Of a stretch of DNA of 64,000 bases, positions 57,319 to 64,000 are shown piece by piece (within the stretch, counting starts at the first letter, position 1; every line of letters begins with the position of its first letter). Position numbers and translations under genes: made by a program. The DNA comes from Pontibacter sp. SGAir0037 (GTDB taxonomy: Bacteria; Bacteroidota; Bacteroidia; Cytophagales; Hymenobacteraceae), in assembly GCF_005491705.1 (NCBI RefSeq), contig NZ_CP028092.1:1116001-1180000 (forward strand), written 5' to 3'. The notes beneath the pieces were generated by a model, which saw nothing but the letters and a program-made list of their open reading frames with translations, ran no database searches and was not told the origin of the DNA.

Positions 57319-59730
57319 TTACTTCTTCTTTGGAGCTGCCTTCTTTGCGGCAGGTTTTTTAGCCGCAGTTTTTTTTGCAGCTGGTTTTTTCTCGTCAGCA
57401 GGCTCTGCTTTTTTCTTAAAGCCTCCTCTGCCTTTCTTCTCCGGTGTTTTCTCTGCCAGTTCCAGGCATTCTTCAAGCGTTAGCTCCGTCGGCTCTTTGT
57501 CTTTCGGAATTTTAACATTCTTCTTGCCTACCACGATATAAGGTCCATACCGTCCGTTCAGTACTTGTACGTCCGGATTTTCCGGAAAATCCTTGATCAG
57601 TTTTTCTGCATCGGCCTTGCGCTTCGCTTCAATCAGCTCTATGGCTTCTTCTGCTGTTACTGTTTGTGGGTCCAGGTGCTTGGGCAGGGAGTAAAACTTG
57701 CTGTTGTGGCGGATATACGGACCAAAACGACCAATAGCAGCGGTCATGTCTTTTTCTTCGTAATTGCCCACCACCCTCGGCAGCTTAAAAAGTTCCAGTG
57801 CATCTTCTAAGGCAAGGCTTTCGATAAACTGGCCTTTGCGCAAACTGGCATAAACAGGCTTCTCTCCGGTTTCCTCGTTTTCTTCGCCAAGCTGCACATA
57901 AGGTCCAAACCGCCCGAGCTTAGCCACAATAGTCTTTCCGGTAGCAGGATCAGTGCCCAACTCCCTGGCGCCGGAAACATCGGCCCTGGAAATGCTTTCA
58001 CTGGACTCGATGCGCTGGTGGAACTTGTTGTAAAAATTCTCAAGCATTCCTTCCCACTCCTGCTGACCATGGGCAATCTCATCAAACTCAGCTTCTACCC
58101 GTGCTGTGAACGAAAAGTCGATCACGTTCGGGAAGTGCTCCACCAGGAAATCGTTTACCACCATTGCCATGTCTGTCGGAAACAGTTTTGCTTTTTCGGC
58201 ACCGGTTATTTCTGTTTTAGTTTGGGTTGAAATATTGTCACTTTTCAGGGTGATTACCTGGAAATTACGTTCTTTACCTTCACGGCTGTCCTTTTCTACA
58301 TAACCTCTTTTCTGGATGGTAGAAATAGTAGGCGCATAGGTAGATGGTCTGCCTATACCCATTTCTTCCAGCTTTTTTACCAGACTGGCTTCAGTATAGC
58401 GCGGGGCAGGGCGGGAGTAGCGCTGTGTTGCCAGCATTTGGCGTAAACCAAGTGCTTGACCGATAGACAAAGGAGGCAACATGCCTTTTACATCATCGTC
58501 CTGCTGCTCTTCATCGTCTTTCGACTCTATGTATACTTTCAGGAAACCTTCGAATTTAATTACCTCGCCTGTCGCCACTAATTTATCCGGGCGTGTTGAG
58601 ATACCGATGGTCGCAGTCGTTTTCTCAATTTCTGCATCAGCCATTTGAGAGGCAATGGCACGTTTCCAGATCAACTCGTACAGGCGTTGCTCGTTACGGT
58701 CGCTGCTGGCTACCATGGCCGAAAAATCGGTTGGGCGAATAGCTTCGTGCGCTTCCTGGGCCGACTGGTTCTTTGTTTTGAAACGCCGTGTTTTTACAAA
58801 GCGCTCACCGAAAGAGTTAGCTATGGCAGAGGAGGCCGACTGAATGGCATCTTCCGATAAGTTAACAGAGTCGGTACGCATGTAGGAGATCTTACCAGCT
58901 TCGTACAGTTTCTGAGCAATAGACATTGTCTGTGCTACCGAAAAATATAATTTACGGCTGGCCTCCTGCTGCAGGGTAGAAGTAGTAAAAGGCGGAGCAG
59001 GAGTCCTCTTCAGAGGCTTGGTCTCCAGGTTCTCTATTGTATAGGCAGCGCCTACACAACCCTGAAGAAAAGCCTGCGCTTCGTCTTCCGTTTTAAATTT
59101 GGCAGGCAATTCTGCTTCCAGAACTTTACCCTGCACATCGAAAGAAGCAGTTACTTTAAACGACGATTCGGCCTTAAAGCGATCGATTTCACGCTCACGC
59201 TCCACCACCAGGCGTACAGCCACGGACTGCACACGTCCCGCAGAAAGGCCCGTCTTTATTTTTTTCCAGAGTACAGGAGATAGTTCAAAACCTACCAAAC
59301 GGTCCAAGATACGGCGCGCCTGCTGTGCATTCACCAGGTCCATGTCTATGCCGCGCGGTGAGCTAATGGCATTCAGGATAGCATTTTTAGTGATTTCCCG
59401 GAATACGATGCGGCGTGTTTGTTTATTGTTAAGATTCAGAGCCTCCGTCAGGTGCCAGGATATAGCTTCTCCCTCGCGATCATCGTCCGATGCCAGCCAC
59501 ACAGTTTCCGCTTCCTTGGCAAGCTTACGAAGCTGTGCCACCACATCCTTTTTATCGCTTGAGATGACATACGTAGGTTTAAAACCATTTTTTACATCAA
59601 TGGCATTATTATCCTTGGGTAAATCACGCACGTGGCCGAAACTAGACTTCACTACAAAATCTTTCCCCAGATACCCTTCAATCGTTTTGGCCTTGGCAGG
59701 CGACTCTACTATTACTAAGTTTTTAATCAT
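57319..59730 (-). CDS. topA: DNA topoisomerase I
   Basis: 803 residues. Type IA enzyme: Toprim VESPAKAKTIEGYLG and DDREGEAISWHL; the catalytic Tyr in GKISYMRTDSVNLSEDA; C-terminal blocks with ATGKTIVAKLGRFGPYVQ, repeated RFGPYI and RYGPYI motifs that replace zinc ribbons. The last 35 residues are Lys/Ala repeats (KKPAAKKTAAKK), a DNA-binding histone-like tail. It relaxes negative supercoils. Confidence 0.96.
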   Translation of the reverse strand: MIKNLVIVESPAKAKTIEGYLGKDFVVKSSFGHVRDLPKDNNAIDVKNGFKPTYVISSDKKDVVAQLRKLAKEAETVWLASDDDREGEAISWHLTEALNLNNKQTRRIVFREITKNAILNAISSPRGIDMDLVNAQQARRILDRLVGFELSPVLWKKIKTGLSAGRVQSVAVRLVVEREREIDRFKAESSFKVTASFDVQGKVLEAELPAKFKTEDEAQAFLQGCVGAAYTIENLETKPLKRTPAPPFTTSTLQQEASRKLYFSVAQTMSIAQKLYEAGKISYMRTDSVNLSEDAIQSASSAIANSFGERFVKTRRFKTKNQSAQEAHEAIRPTDFSAMVASSDRNEQRLYELIWKRAIASQMADAEIEKTTATIGISTRPDKLVATGEVIKFEGFLKVYIESKDDEEQQDDDVKGMLPPLSIGQALGLRQMLATQRYSRPAPRYTEASLVKKLEEMGIGRPSTYAPTISTIQKRGYVEKDSREGKERNFQVITLKSDNISTQTKTEITGAEKAKLFPTDMAMVVNDFLVEHFPNVIDFSFTARVEAEFDEIAHGQQEWEGMLENFYNKFHQRIESSESISRADVSGARELGTDPATGKTIVAKLGRFGPYVQLGEENEETGEKPVYASLRKGQFIESLALEDALELFKLPRVVGNYEEKDMTAAIGRFGPYIRHNSKFYSLPKHLDPQTVTAEEAIELIEAKRKADAEKLIKDFPENPDVQVLNGRYGPYIVVGKKNVKIPKDKEPTELTLEECLELAEKTPEKKGRGGFKKKAEPADEKKPAAKKTAAKKPAAKKAAPKKK

Positions 59731-59898: not shown

Positions 59899-60381
59899 AT
59901 GCAAAGAAATGTTCTGATCTGCCGCCATGCAGAAGCAAGTGATCCCTTTCCACTGCGACCAGACTTTGAACGAGAACTAACAAAAGACGGCATCCACCAG
60001 GCCCATCTTGCCGGGCAATGGCTGCGGGATCACTTCCGCAAAGTAGATGCCATACTTGCAAGCCCCTCTAACAGGACCCGCACCACGGCTGGTATTATTG
60101 CCGGCAGGCTGTACTTCGAAGACGAAAATATAACCTACGATCCGGATTTATACAATCCGCGGGAGTCGCAGCTTATAGGTGCCCTGAGCCGTTTGCCTGA
60201 GAGCGTGACCAATGTACTGGTTGTATCGCATAACCCAGGTGTAACACAGCTTGGCAGAACCTTAACCGACAAGCGCATTGGTTACCTGGAGCCGGCCCAG
60301 GTGCTTGCTGTTTCCATTAAGCTCGAAAAATGGGAAGAAGTTCATTTTACGACCGGCACCTTAATGAGTAGCAATATGTAA
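59899..60381 (+). CDS. SixA-type histidine phosphatase
   Basis: 160 residues, no signal. The phosphohistidine start is ICRHAEASDPFP, followed by KDGIHQAHLAGQWLR, ASPSNRTRTTAGI and VLVVSHNPGV. SixA in E. coli dephosphorylates phosphohistidine proteins; the target here is unknown. Divergent from topA. Confidence 0.88.
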   Translation: MQRNVLICRHAEASDPFPLRPDFERELTKDGIHQAHLAGQWLRDHFRKVDAILASPSNRTRTTAGIIAGRLYFEDENITYDPDLYNPRESQLIGALSRLPESVTNVLVVSHNPGVTQLGRTLTDKRIGYLEPAQVLAVSIKLEKWEEVHFTTGTLMSSNM

Positions 60382-60602: not shown

Positions 60603-61352
60603 ATGAAGACAACTGTTGTAGCAGTCATTAACCAGAAAGGTGGTACCGGCAAAACTACTACCACTATTAATTTAGGTAGTGCGCTGAGTAAAGCTGGTAA
60701 AAAGGTGTTGCTGGTAGATCTTGACCCTCAGAGCAATCTTTCTTATTCGCTTGCTGTAGCCAATCCGGATGCTACGCTGGCGGATGTTTTTCTGGGCAAC
60801 AAAGCGCTAAAGGATATACTGGTGGAAAAGGACGGGCTTTGGGTTGCCCCCGGCTCCAACGACCTGGTGGATGTGGAAATTTCGCTGGTGACACAGGAAG
60901 AAAGAGAAAAATTCCTGAAAAAAATACTTTCTGAAACGAAAGGCTTTGACTATGTGTTGATCGATTGTCCTCCATCCCTCTCCGTGCTAACGCTGAATGC
61001 ACTAACTGCCGCGCAGGAAGTACTGGTTCCGTTACAAATGGAAGTGCTTACCCTGCAGGGCCTTGACCAGATAATGAATACCGTTAACAAGGTAAAAAAG
61101 GCCTTTAACCCAAAACTTAAAATTAAAGGAGTCGTAGTGGTGATGTTTGATATCAGGAGAAAGCTGAGCCAGGAAGTGCTCGAGTACCTGCAGGAAAACA
61201 TCAAAGAGAAAATCTTTAAGAGCCAGATACGCTTAAATGTTAAGTTAGCAGAGGCTCCCTCGTTCGGTAAAAGTGTGCTGGACTATGATCCCTCTTCGAA
61301 CGGGGCAAAGGATTATAAGGCGTTGGCAGCCGAGTTTTTGGAGGCGTCGTGA
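60603..61352 (+). CDS. ParA-family ATPase (no adjacent ParB)
   Basis: 249 residues from the ATG at 60603; the frame from a TTG at 60582 adds only a few residues. Deviant Walker A NQKGGTGKTTTTIN, Walker A' VDLDPQSNLS, and YVLIDCPPSLS. No parB follows. Instead a poly-HAMP kinase gene starts 143 bp downstream on the same strand, so the ATPase may place that protein, as orphan ParAs do for chemosensory arrays. Confidence 0.92.
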   Translation: MKTTVVAVINQKGGTGKTTTTINLGSALSKAGKKVLLVDLDPQSNLSYSLAVANPDATLADVFLGNKALKDILVEKDGLWVAPGSNDLVDVEISLVTQEEREKFLKKILSETKGFDYVLIDCPPSLSVLTLNALTAAQEVLVPLQMEVLTLQGLDQIMNTVNKVKKAFNPKLKIKGVVVVMFDIRRKLSQEVLEYLQENIKEKIFKSQIRLNVKLAEAPSFGKSVLDYDPSSNGAKDYKALAAEFLEAS

Positions 61353-61495: not shown

Positions 61496-64000
61496 ATGGC
61501 CTTAGGAAAAAACCTGAAGTTGAGCAAAGACAAGCTCATAAGTGAAGAAGCCAAGCAAGAAAAAAATCCTGTTGCAAAAGCCAAGCAAGAAAGTAAGACG
61601 CCCACTGCTACTATAACAGAGGCTCCTGCTACGCCTGCTGCCGATGCACCCGTACAAGAAACAGCTACTAAAGAAGCAACTCCTGCCGCCGAAAGAAACG
61701 GAACTGCGACAATGGCTGACGTTGGTAATGCTAATACTAAAAAGAAGCAGGTACTGCCCCAGAACTCAGAGTATATAAGTGAGCAACTTAATAAAGTGCT
61801 TTACGCGCTGGATGCCTTTAAAAAAGGAGATATCTCTGTTCGCCTCACCAAACAGAACAACGACATTTTTGCGGAAATAGCCGAAGCCTACAACTCGATG
61901 GTGGAAATGATCGGTGGTGTAGGTGGCGAAGTGTCGCGTATCTCTAAAGTAGCCGGAGTAGAGGGTAACTTGAAAGCCCGGGCTTCTGCCGAGAACGCTT
62001 CCGGTTTCTGGAAAGATATGATCAATAACATCAATGGCCTGGTGGATTCCATTGCTGTTCCGGTACTCGAGGTGGGTAAAGTACTGAAGAATATTTCCAG
62101 GGGTAACCTGGACGAAACATTCCAGATTCCTGTTTCGGGTGACTTTAAAGTGATGGCCGAAACCATTAACCGCACGATTGATAACCTGAACCTGTTTGCC
62201 GGTGAGGTAACCCGTGTGGCACTCGAAGTGGGTACCGAGGGTAAATTGGGCGGACAGGCATCTGTGCCAAACGTGGCCGGTGTCTGGAAAGATCTGACCG
62301 ACAACGTGAACACCATGGCCAGCAACCTGACCCTGCAGGTGCGCGATATTGCGAAAGTGGCGATTGGTGTGGCTCAGGGTAACCTGACCCAGAAAGTATC
62401 TGTGGACGTGCGTGGTGAGTTTGAGCAGTTGAAGGATAACGTGAACCAGATGGTGGACTCGCTCAACATTTTTGCTGACGAGGTAACCCGTGTGGCCCGT
62501 GAAGTGGGTACAGAGGGTAGGTTGGGCGGCCAGGCGAAAGTGCCGAATGTGGCCGGTGTTTGGAAAGGCCTGACCGACAACGTAAACACCATGGCCAGCA
62601 ACCTGACGTCTCAGATGCGCGACATTGCCAACGTGGCAACCGCGGTGGCGAAAGGAGACTTAACACAAAAAATTACTGTAAATGTAAAAGGTGAGATTGC
62701 CGAGCTGAAGGATATCCTGAATGCGATGGTGGACTCGCTTAATATTTTTGCCGGTGAGGTAACCCGCGTGGCACGTGAGGTAGGTACCGAAGGGAAGCTG
62801 GGGGGACAGGCCAATGTACCTCGTGTAGAAGGAACCTGGAAAGAACTTACTGACAATGTAAACCTGATGACCAGCAACCTGACCTCGCAGGTGCGCGACA
62901 TTGCTAACGTAGCAACGGCTGTGGCGAAAGGCGACCTGACACAGAAAGTATCTGTTGATGTGAAGGGGGAACTGGGTGATCTAAAAGATATATTAAATGC
63001 GATGGTGGACAGGCTGAACGTGTTTGGCGCGGAAGTAACGCGTGTGGCACGTGAGGTAGGCACCGAAGGTATATTGGGTGGTCAGGCAAATGTGCCGAAT
63101 GTAGCCGGTATCTGGAAAGAACTAACAGATAACGTGAACTACATGGCCAGCAACCTGACGGCCCAGATGCGTGACATCGCTAATGTGGCAACAGCAGTAG
63201 CGAAAGGCGACTTAACACAGAAAATTACTGTAAATGTGCGTGGTGAGCTGGCTGAGCTGAAGGTGAACATTAACCAGATGGTGGACTCGCTCAACATCTT
63301 CTCCGACGAGGTAACGCGTGTGGCCCGTGAAGTGGGTACCGAGGGTAAACTGGGCGGACAGGCAACAGTGCCGAACGTGGGAGGTGTTTGGAAAGACCTG
63401 ACCGACAACGTAAACACCATGGCCAGTAACCTGACGGCGCAGATGCGTGACATTGCCAACGTGGCAACGGCAGTGGCCCAGGGCGACCTGACTCAGAAGA
63501 TCACAGTAGATGTGAAAGGTGAGCTGATGGATCTGAAAGAGAACCTGAACCAAATGGTGGACTCGCTCAACATCTTTGCCGGTGAGGTAACCCGCGTGGC
63601 CCGTGAAGTGGGTACTGAGGGTAAACTGGGCGGCCAGGCGGTGGTGCCGAATGTTGGTGGTGTTTGGAAAGATCTGACTGACAATGTTAACTCCATGGCG
63701 GGTAACCTTACCTCTCAGGTACGTGACATTGCCAACGTGGCAACGGCGGTGGCGCAGGGCGACCTGACCCAGAAGATCAATGTGGATGTGAAAGGTGAGA
63801 TGCTGTCCCTGAAGGAGAACCTGAACCAGATGGTGGACTCGCTCAACATCTTTGCCGGTGAGGTAACCCGTGTGGCCCGTGAAGTGGGTACTGAGGGTAA
63901 GCTGGGCGGACAGGCGGTGGTGCCAAACGTAGCCGGTACCTGGAAATCGCTTACTGATAATGTGAATACCATGGCCTCTAACCTGACCCTGCAGGTGCGT
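61496..64000 (+). CDS. Soluble poly-HAMP (Nik1-like) signalling protein, partial
   Basis: 835 codons from the ATG at 61496 to the window edge, still open. The first 90 residues are a Lys/Glu/Ala/Thr linker without membrane span. Then a HAMP-like segment ([13 protein letters not shown]), a second ([14 protein letters not shown]), and from about residue 235 tandem 92-residue units, each with a segment [47 protein letters not shown] and MVDSLNIFA. These match the 92-residue HAMP repeats of fungal group III (Nik1/Os-1) hybrid kinases and their bacterial homologues. GAF, kinase and receiver parts are expected beyond the window. Confidence 0.85.
62204..64000 (+). repeat. Tandem 276-bp repeats encoding HAMP pairs
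   Basis: The GAGGTAAC-type start of each unit lies at 62204, 62480, 62756, 63032, 63308, 63584 and 63860: an exact 276-bp period, seven starts before the window ends. Units are nearly identical in DNA in many stretches, so copy number could change by recombination. Confidence 0.93.

Follow-up and report, generated by a model that had tools for sequence, protein, structure and literature searches.

A soluble chemoreceptor with a long HAMP array in Pontibacter, encoded between an orphan ParA and a che gene run, and its candidate peptide link to ParA

What does a Nik1-like stack of HAMP domains report to in a bacterium, when the protein that carries it has no membrane span? An earlier note on this DNA had described such a stack from the window alone, that is, from the whole 64,000-nucleotide stretch analysed here (C1:1116001-1180000 of a 5.38-Mb, two-contig Pontibacter genome), and likened the array to those of the fungal osmosensing kinases Nik1/Os-1. 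Here we extend the reading into the flanking DNA (locus L003) and report that the gene encodes a soluble chemoreceptor of the MCP type, the sole PF00015 match in the genome, situated between an orphan ParA gene and a run of che genes. Sequence and analogy make it probable, in our judgement, that this receptor belongs to a cytoplasmic chemosensory array which ParA positions by way of the peptide at the receptor's N-terminus, in the manner of PpfA and TlpT, and whose sensor slot is exchangeable, a Nik1-type HAMP array occupying it here. Among the open-licence papers listed, none appeared to describe this system; the kind of system is already known, and the most interesting feature is a testable candidate link between peptide and ParA.

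The full-length gene and its neighbourhood

The receptor reading frame starts at 61496 and is still open at the window end. Together with its upstream neighbours it comprises the following features, in window coordinates unless a locus is named.

59899..60381, + strand: SixA-like histidine phosphatase (PF00300, E 4.1e-10; TIGR00249 at 57.9 bits, below its cut-off of 74.5)
60603..61352, + strand: orphan ParA-type ATPase, 249 aa from ATG, with a KGGTGKTT Walker A motif
61496..64000, continuing to L003:12020 (genome C1:1182019), + strand: soluble chemoreceptor gene, 1507 aa
61496..61540, + strand: N-terminal peptide, a candidate for docking or activating ParA on the grounds of conservation and co-occurrence with ParA
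61541..61771, + strand: linker rich in Ala, Pro, Lys and Glu by composition, poorly conserved
61784..61912, + strand: first canonical-type HAMP, before unit 1, read from the sequence by eye
61913..62188, + strand: end unit 1 (divergent plus canonical HAMP), 43-55% identical in DNA to the other units
62189..64000, + strand: inner 92-aa units 2 to 8, unit 8 being cut by the window end
Beyond the window, ending at L003:10949, + strand: array units 8-11

Eleven divergent-HAMP anchors recur at an exact spacing of 92 residues, the first at residue 154 and the last at 1074, with canonical anchors alternating; nine of the array's units, the inner ones, resemble one another, and the two at the ends are divergent. 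By our reading it holds about 23 HAMPs, 12 canonical and 11 divergent; Pfam marks 11 HAMP_2 and 10 HAMP stretches in the 1507-aa frame, followed by MCPsignal (PF00015) at residues 1232-1412 (E 1.8e-39, 135.8 bits against a cut-off of 34.6). The earlier note had looked to the 3' end for GAF, kinase and receiver domains, naming a missing kinase beforehand as refutation of its reading, and Pfam found no HisKA, HATPase_c, GAF or receiver domain in this frame. What stands of that reading is a poly-HAMP array of group III type in a bacterium; what gives way is the kinase output, the signalling end being MCPsignal. Pfam found no PAS domain in the receptor either. The claim that the protein lacks membrane spans holds, the highest 19-residue Kyte-Doolittle mean being 1.35, and the linker at 61541..61771 is probably disordered, judging from its composition. 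A QQ pair was spotted by eye in the context ASGTQQVAST, which fits the consensus and makes the pair a candidate MCP methylation site. The HAMP repeat also matches PDB entries 9trk and 9trj, whose chains are named histidine kinase,Gcn4p (E 6e-81 and 2.5e-38), and either could serve as a template for modelling the array.

Downstream of the receptor the gene order is cheW-cheY-cheB-cheA-cheC, with gaps of 12-33 bp or 4-bp overlaps. The cheB product combines receiver and methylesterase domains, and that of cheA has Hpt, dimerisation, ATPase and CheW domains. No ParB was found among the ten neighbouring genes scanned; the che-linked ParA is Soj-like by sequence, and the genome has in addition a separate Soj adjoining a Spo0J-like gene (so named by motif and place). 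The genome contains neither a second PF00015 match nor a Flagellin_N match, and its three CheR domains all lie outside the che gene run. Matches to the GldJ model fell below the curated cut-off, and the model also weakly matches 2 of 14 controls. Promoter-like sites occur at chance level; terminator-like sites number 17, against 10.0 (sd 3.1) expected. Further along the same locus, at L003:17548-18876, S-adenosylmethionine decarboxylase and spermidine synthase are fused in one 442-aa frame.

The array and its locus among relatives

Tandem Repeats Finder reports one long array in the window, at 62195-63999, with a period of 276 bp, 77% matches, 0% indels and a score of 1730. With the 11 anchors standing 92 residues apart, this confirms the 276-bp period and the 92-residue units described at the outset, and the 19-residue motif recurs as the earlier note had it. 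The program's sole other row, at 57350-57390 (41 bp, score 54), holds 2.7 imperfect copies of a 15-bp unit; they encode the Lys/Ala-rich tail of DNA topoisomerase I and lie at the 3' end of its gene.

The units are indeed repeated in the DNA, as the earlier note had said; the degree of identity it ascribed to them was overstated. Inner units 2-10 are 69-85% identical; of the 1342 DNA differences among units 3-9, third codon positions account for 888, and the longest exact run common to units is 32 bp, from which we conclude that the units are kept alike as protein and not as fresh DNA copies. Very recent expansion or strong concerted evolution is unsupported by a unit-by-unit comparison between loci: in L003 and L046 the best match lies at the same position for 9 of 11 units, and inner units find their best protein match, on average, at 91.3% in the other species and at 83.5% within their own protein. 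Since this gap has gone in distant pairs (L079/L081, 89.0 against 88.5), and the inner units of L062/L064 are blurred, some homogenisation of units is possible.

Measured between two fixed landmarks, the core length falls on exact 92-aa rungs, eight of them, in 61 of 62 measurable loci (58 of 59 with exact landmarks; a relaxed landmark adds L038, L041 and L094, and L208 was not measurable), the sole off-rung locus, L070, being 3 residues short. Unit counts cover 60 of the 61 family loci, the count in L070 having broken off at 1 and been set aside: 8 units were found in 11 loci, 9 in 2, 10 in 14, 11 in 16, 12 in 5, 13 in 4, 14 in 6 and 15 in 2. The expectation that repeat number varies is thereby borne out between species. 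Short-read assemblies can collapse repeats, and the 28 genomes in at most four contigs alone span 8 to 15 units (L070 uncounted). Of related loci, L043 and L048 are one whole unit apart and L073 and L071 two, the place of the change varying; no half-unit (single-HAMP) step was seen among measurable loci. Adding HAMPs in pairs would keep the sign of the signal; recombination alone would also give whole units, and because canonical and divergent HAMP DNA are at most 41% alike (ungapped alignments, shifts up to 60 bases), selection on parity is inseparable from recombination here.

The receptor signalling region has exactly one match in each of the 120 Hymenobacteraceae genomes searched. Loci were read in 61 of these 120 genomes, mostly picked for few contigs and a match far from a contig end, and cheW, cheY, cheA and cheC lie downstream of the receptor in all 61. 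ParA and SixA stand directly upstream in 42 of them (the Pontibacter, Rufibacter and Adhaeribacter groups) and were not found at the locus in the other 19 (the Hymenobacter and Solirubrum groups). The SixA-like gene precedes ParA in 42/42 ParA-bearing family loci, at 27-64% identity in 41 relatives; its product might act on the Hpt domain of CheA, and its role in the system is uncertain.

CheB is present in 46/61 family loci and missing from the che run in 15 (L038, L046, L065-L068, L080-L082, L084, L087, L088, L090, L094, L096). A CheR query gave no match in 3 of 30 genomes searched (G007, G004, G011), each of which keeps a CheB gene in the operon. Both observations make standard methylation adaptation doubtful; it may be decaying, or CheB may act otherwise.

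An order-wide search (E 1e-50) found a related signalling domain in 100 of 292 genomes, 42 of them outside the family, from which 40 loci in 38 genomes were taken (G188, G219, G231 and G242 were left out). Across the phylum, a threshold of E 1e-45 leaves 4 matching genomes out of 392, every one from the same family and one being the Pontibacter genome itself. In two other families, L208 (G227) and L209 (G304) encode HAMP-array receptors without peptide or ParA, whose signalling domains are 82% and 74% identical to the family's; L208 has a further receptor-like frame upstream, which may be a broken start.

The N-terminal peptide and ParA

A conserved basic peptide is present at the receptor's N-terminus. 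Receptors of ParA-bearing family loci start with MALGKN[LM]KL[SN]K[DE]KLI, which is absent in the 19 ParA-less loci. Within the genus (26 loci) residues 1-16 are 96% identical pairwise, with variable nucleotide columns numbering 3/0/8 by codon position, and the linker behind is poorly conserved. Using the pattern ^MALG.N[ILMV][KRN], chosen after seeing the sequences, and seeking ParA within 2.5 kb upstream, we found peptide and adjacent ParA together in 56 of 104 receptor genes of the order, neither in 46, peptide alone in 2 and ParA alone in 0 (L234 was omitted for want of upstream DNA, and four loci yielded a second receptor).

Genome-wide search located a similar ParA away from the receptor gene in both peptide-only genomes, and likewise in two further genomes whose peptide is the variant MASGKEIKRDRLI. 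The ParAs of these four genomes fall together with the che-adjacent ones and separately from Soj and the remaining ParAs (SH-aLRT 98), in a quick tree with flagged long branches. That tree samples 24 of the 56 ParAs adjacent to che genes; its other members are mainly the best match per genome. A relaxed recoding, made after the fact, gives 60 rows with both and 44 with neither, with no exceptions. By our count, 34 of the 44 come from wholly searched genomes in which no best ParA belongs to the che clade, and 8 come from six genomes that were searched in part (G141, G342, G253, G147, G302, G314). The remaining 2 belong to G156 and G181, as second receptors in genomes that do carry a clade ParA. 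The Hymenobacter/Solirubrum group lacks both peptide and ParA in 19/19 genomes, the best ParA there being 37-38% identical, compared with 69-100% in 10/10 ParA-bearing genomes.

Might this co-occurrence reflect shared ancestry and hitchhiking in one gene block, with ParA positioning some other cargo? Most of the 56 joint cases do come from a few clades. Supported independent contrasts number four to five; under strict coding an average of 3.8 out of 5 have the peptide going with ParA, and none shows the opposite, and after the relaxed, post hoc recoding 4 of 4 point the same way, with p at best 0.125. With so few phylogenetically independent contrasts, the co-occurrence is not significant. Hitchhiking is nevertheless unlikely, we think, for four genomes keep the peptide (or its variant) and a clade ParA on different contigs, both are missing together throughout the 19 Hymenobacter/Solirubrum-group genomes, and the peptide persists over unrelated sensor domains in the five loci scanned among 14 such.

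Another possibility is that the receptor tail binds the nucleoid directly and the adjoining ParA serves something else. There is precedent in FrzCD, a soluble receptor that contains HAMPs and whose basic N-terminus binds DNA (PMC12077210, PMC5716589). Ahead of the first HAMP, 18 of 19 ParA-less loci (L070-L073, L078-L092) have a TRKRG-type motif and 0/42 ParA-bearing ones do, which could be taken in the same sense for the Hymenobacter group. FrzCD tails, however, are reported to preserve charge and not sequence, whereas the peptide here is nearly invariant and is missing wherever ParA is missing. Net charge shows no difference between loci with and without ParA (p 0.61 for the last 30 tail residues, p 0.14 for the tail as a whole), and a compensating basic tail in ParA-less receptors was rejected on these figures. 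Direct nucleoid binding thus appears quite improbable for this receptor.

Spo0J-like proteins in ten genomes of the order have ALG[RK]G[LI], GLGRGL or VLGRGL near their starts, which resemble the MALG[KDN]N[LI] of the receptors, a likeness noted post hoc. By eye, the Arg with which Spo0J activates its partner lines up with a K, D or N in the peptide, a point against the reading favoured here.

Sensor exchange, proposed mechanism and known systems

Outside the family, 14 receptors have both peptide and ParA, and the five scanned contain PAS domains, one HAMP_2 stretch and MCPsignal, with no HAMP array. One of them (L212:7024-13275, G228), a PAS-array receptor 2084 aa long, has 13 PAS_3 stretches as well as the N-terminal peptide, and a ParA gene lies upstream of it. 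In other families of the order, HAMP arrays at most 74% identical to the window's inner units occur, among the matches listed, in long frames (mostly 1775-2232 aa), and all four array-bearing frames examined have Nik1 architecture, with HAMP array, GAF, HisKA, HATPase_c and receiver. As the same repeat is found in these kinase frames, the HAMP array is a module common to Nik1-type kinases and this receptor family, with different outputs. A Nik1/Os-1-like osmosensing hybrid histidine kinase, to which the repeat shared with kinases of the order and the histidine-kinase chains of 9trk and 9trj might point, is ruled out, barring a misassembly of the genome at this place, by a full-length 1507-aa frame that ends in an MCP signalling domain, has no HisKA, HATPase_c, GAF or receiver and heads a che gene run, and we give it next to no credence.

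Positioning of the array by ParA, with the HAMP rod as its input, is the reading we favour because it fits PpfA and TlpT and because HAMP conformers sending opposite signals are reported for Aer2 (PMC3570549). Short, positively charged N-terminal peptides, that of TlpT included, are common activators of ParA/MinD ATPases according to a paper on PomX (PMC7993993); PpfA of R. sphaeroides is reported to act through the TlpT N-terminus (PMC3964821), and the survey PMC2829493 reports PpfA homologues in che operons of 77/206 species surveyed. By analogy, receptor dimers, CheA and CheW would assemble into a cytoplasmic array, and the dimers' N-terminal peptides would dock on ParA at the nucleoid and switch on its ATPase in the way of ParB or TlpT; ParA would thereby position the array and share it out at division. 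The HAMP stack would serve as input and relay rod, in which an incoming change could flip alternating HAMPs and set CheA activity, and CheY-P, drained by CheC, would alter surface (gliding) motility or another output; gliding is a guess. Candidate stimuli are osmotic change, small molecules, as described for poly-HAMP kinases (PMC7643160), and a partner protein.

A broader proposal, tenable if somewhat short of an even chance, is that an address tag (MALGxN-K/R) couples soluble chemoreceptors of the order to a dedicated ParA clade while the sensor slot is freely swapped, the family's input being one HAMP rod that lengthens in sign-preserving pairs. Its length would be free to evolve because there is no second receptor that it has to match. 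The family offers a natural system for testing long HAMP arrays, with one receptor match per genome, 8 to 15 pairs and a conventional CheA readout, as well as a candidate short peptide for docking ParA cargo, with the Hymenobacter group, lacking either partner, as ready controls.

Among known systems, TlpT/PpfA of Rhodobacter sphaeroides resembles the present one in gene context and description, with a soluble receptor, an orphan ParA in a che operon and contact through the N-terminus (PMC3964821, PMC7993993). TlpT differs in having 567 aa, a length that leaves no room for a HAMP array of this size, and R. sphaeroides has a second, membrane-bound array, whereas here one 1507-aa receptor is the only MCP match and Flagellin_N has none. 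FrzCD of Myxococcus xanthus is likewise soluble, with HAMPs between N-terminal tail and signalling domain; PMC12077210 and PMC5716589 give it two HAMPs, in contrast to about 23 here, and a tail that is variable in sequence, basic and DNA-binding. Aer2-type receptors share alternating HAMP conformers in a soluble MCP, and Aer2 is unlike ours in having five HAMPs around a haem PAS domain (PMC3570549), PAS being absent from the Pfam results here; the NCBIfam Aer2 model aligns at 321.5 of 1200 bits, far below cut-off. Group III kinases, comprising fungal Nik1/Os-1 and bacterial AskA/AskB, are also poly-HAMP and without a membrane span (PMC7643160), the fungal ones being likened by description. Their output is kinase and receiver, in place of which the present family has an MCP signalling domain; the question of which stimulus acts on a HAMP stack away from the membrane bears on fungal osmosensing and fungicide action too.
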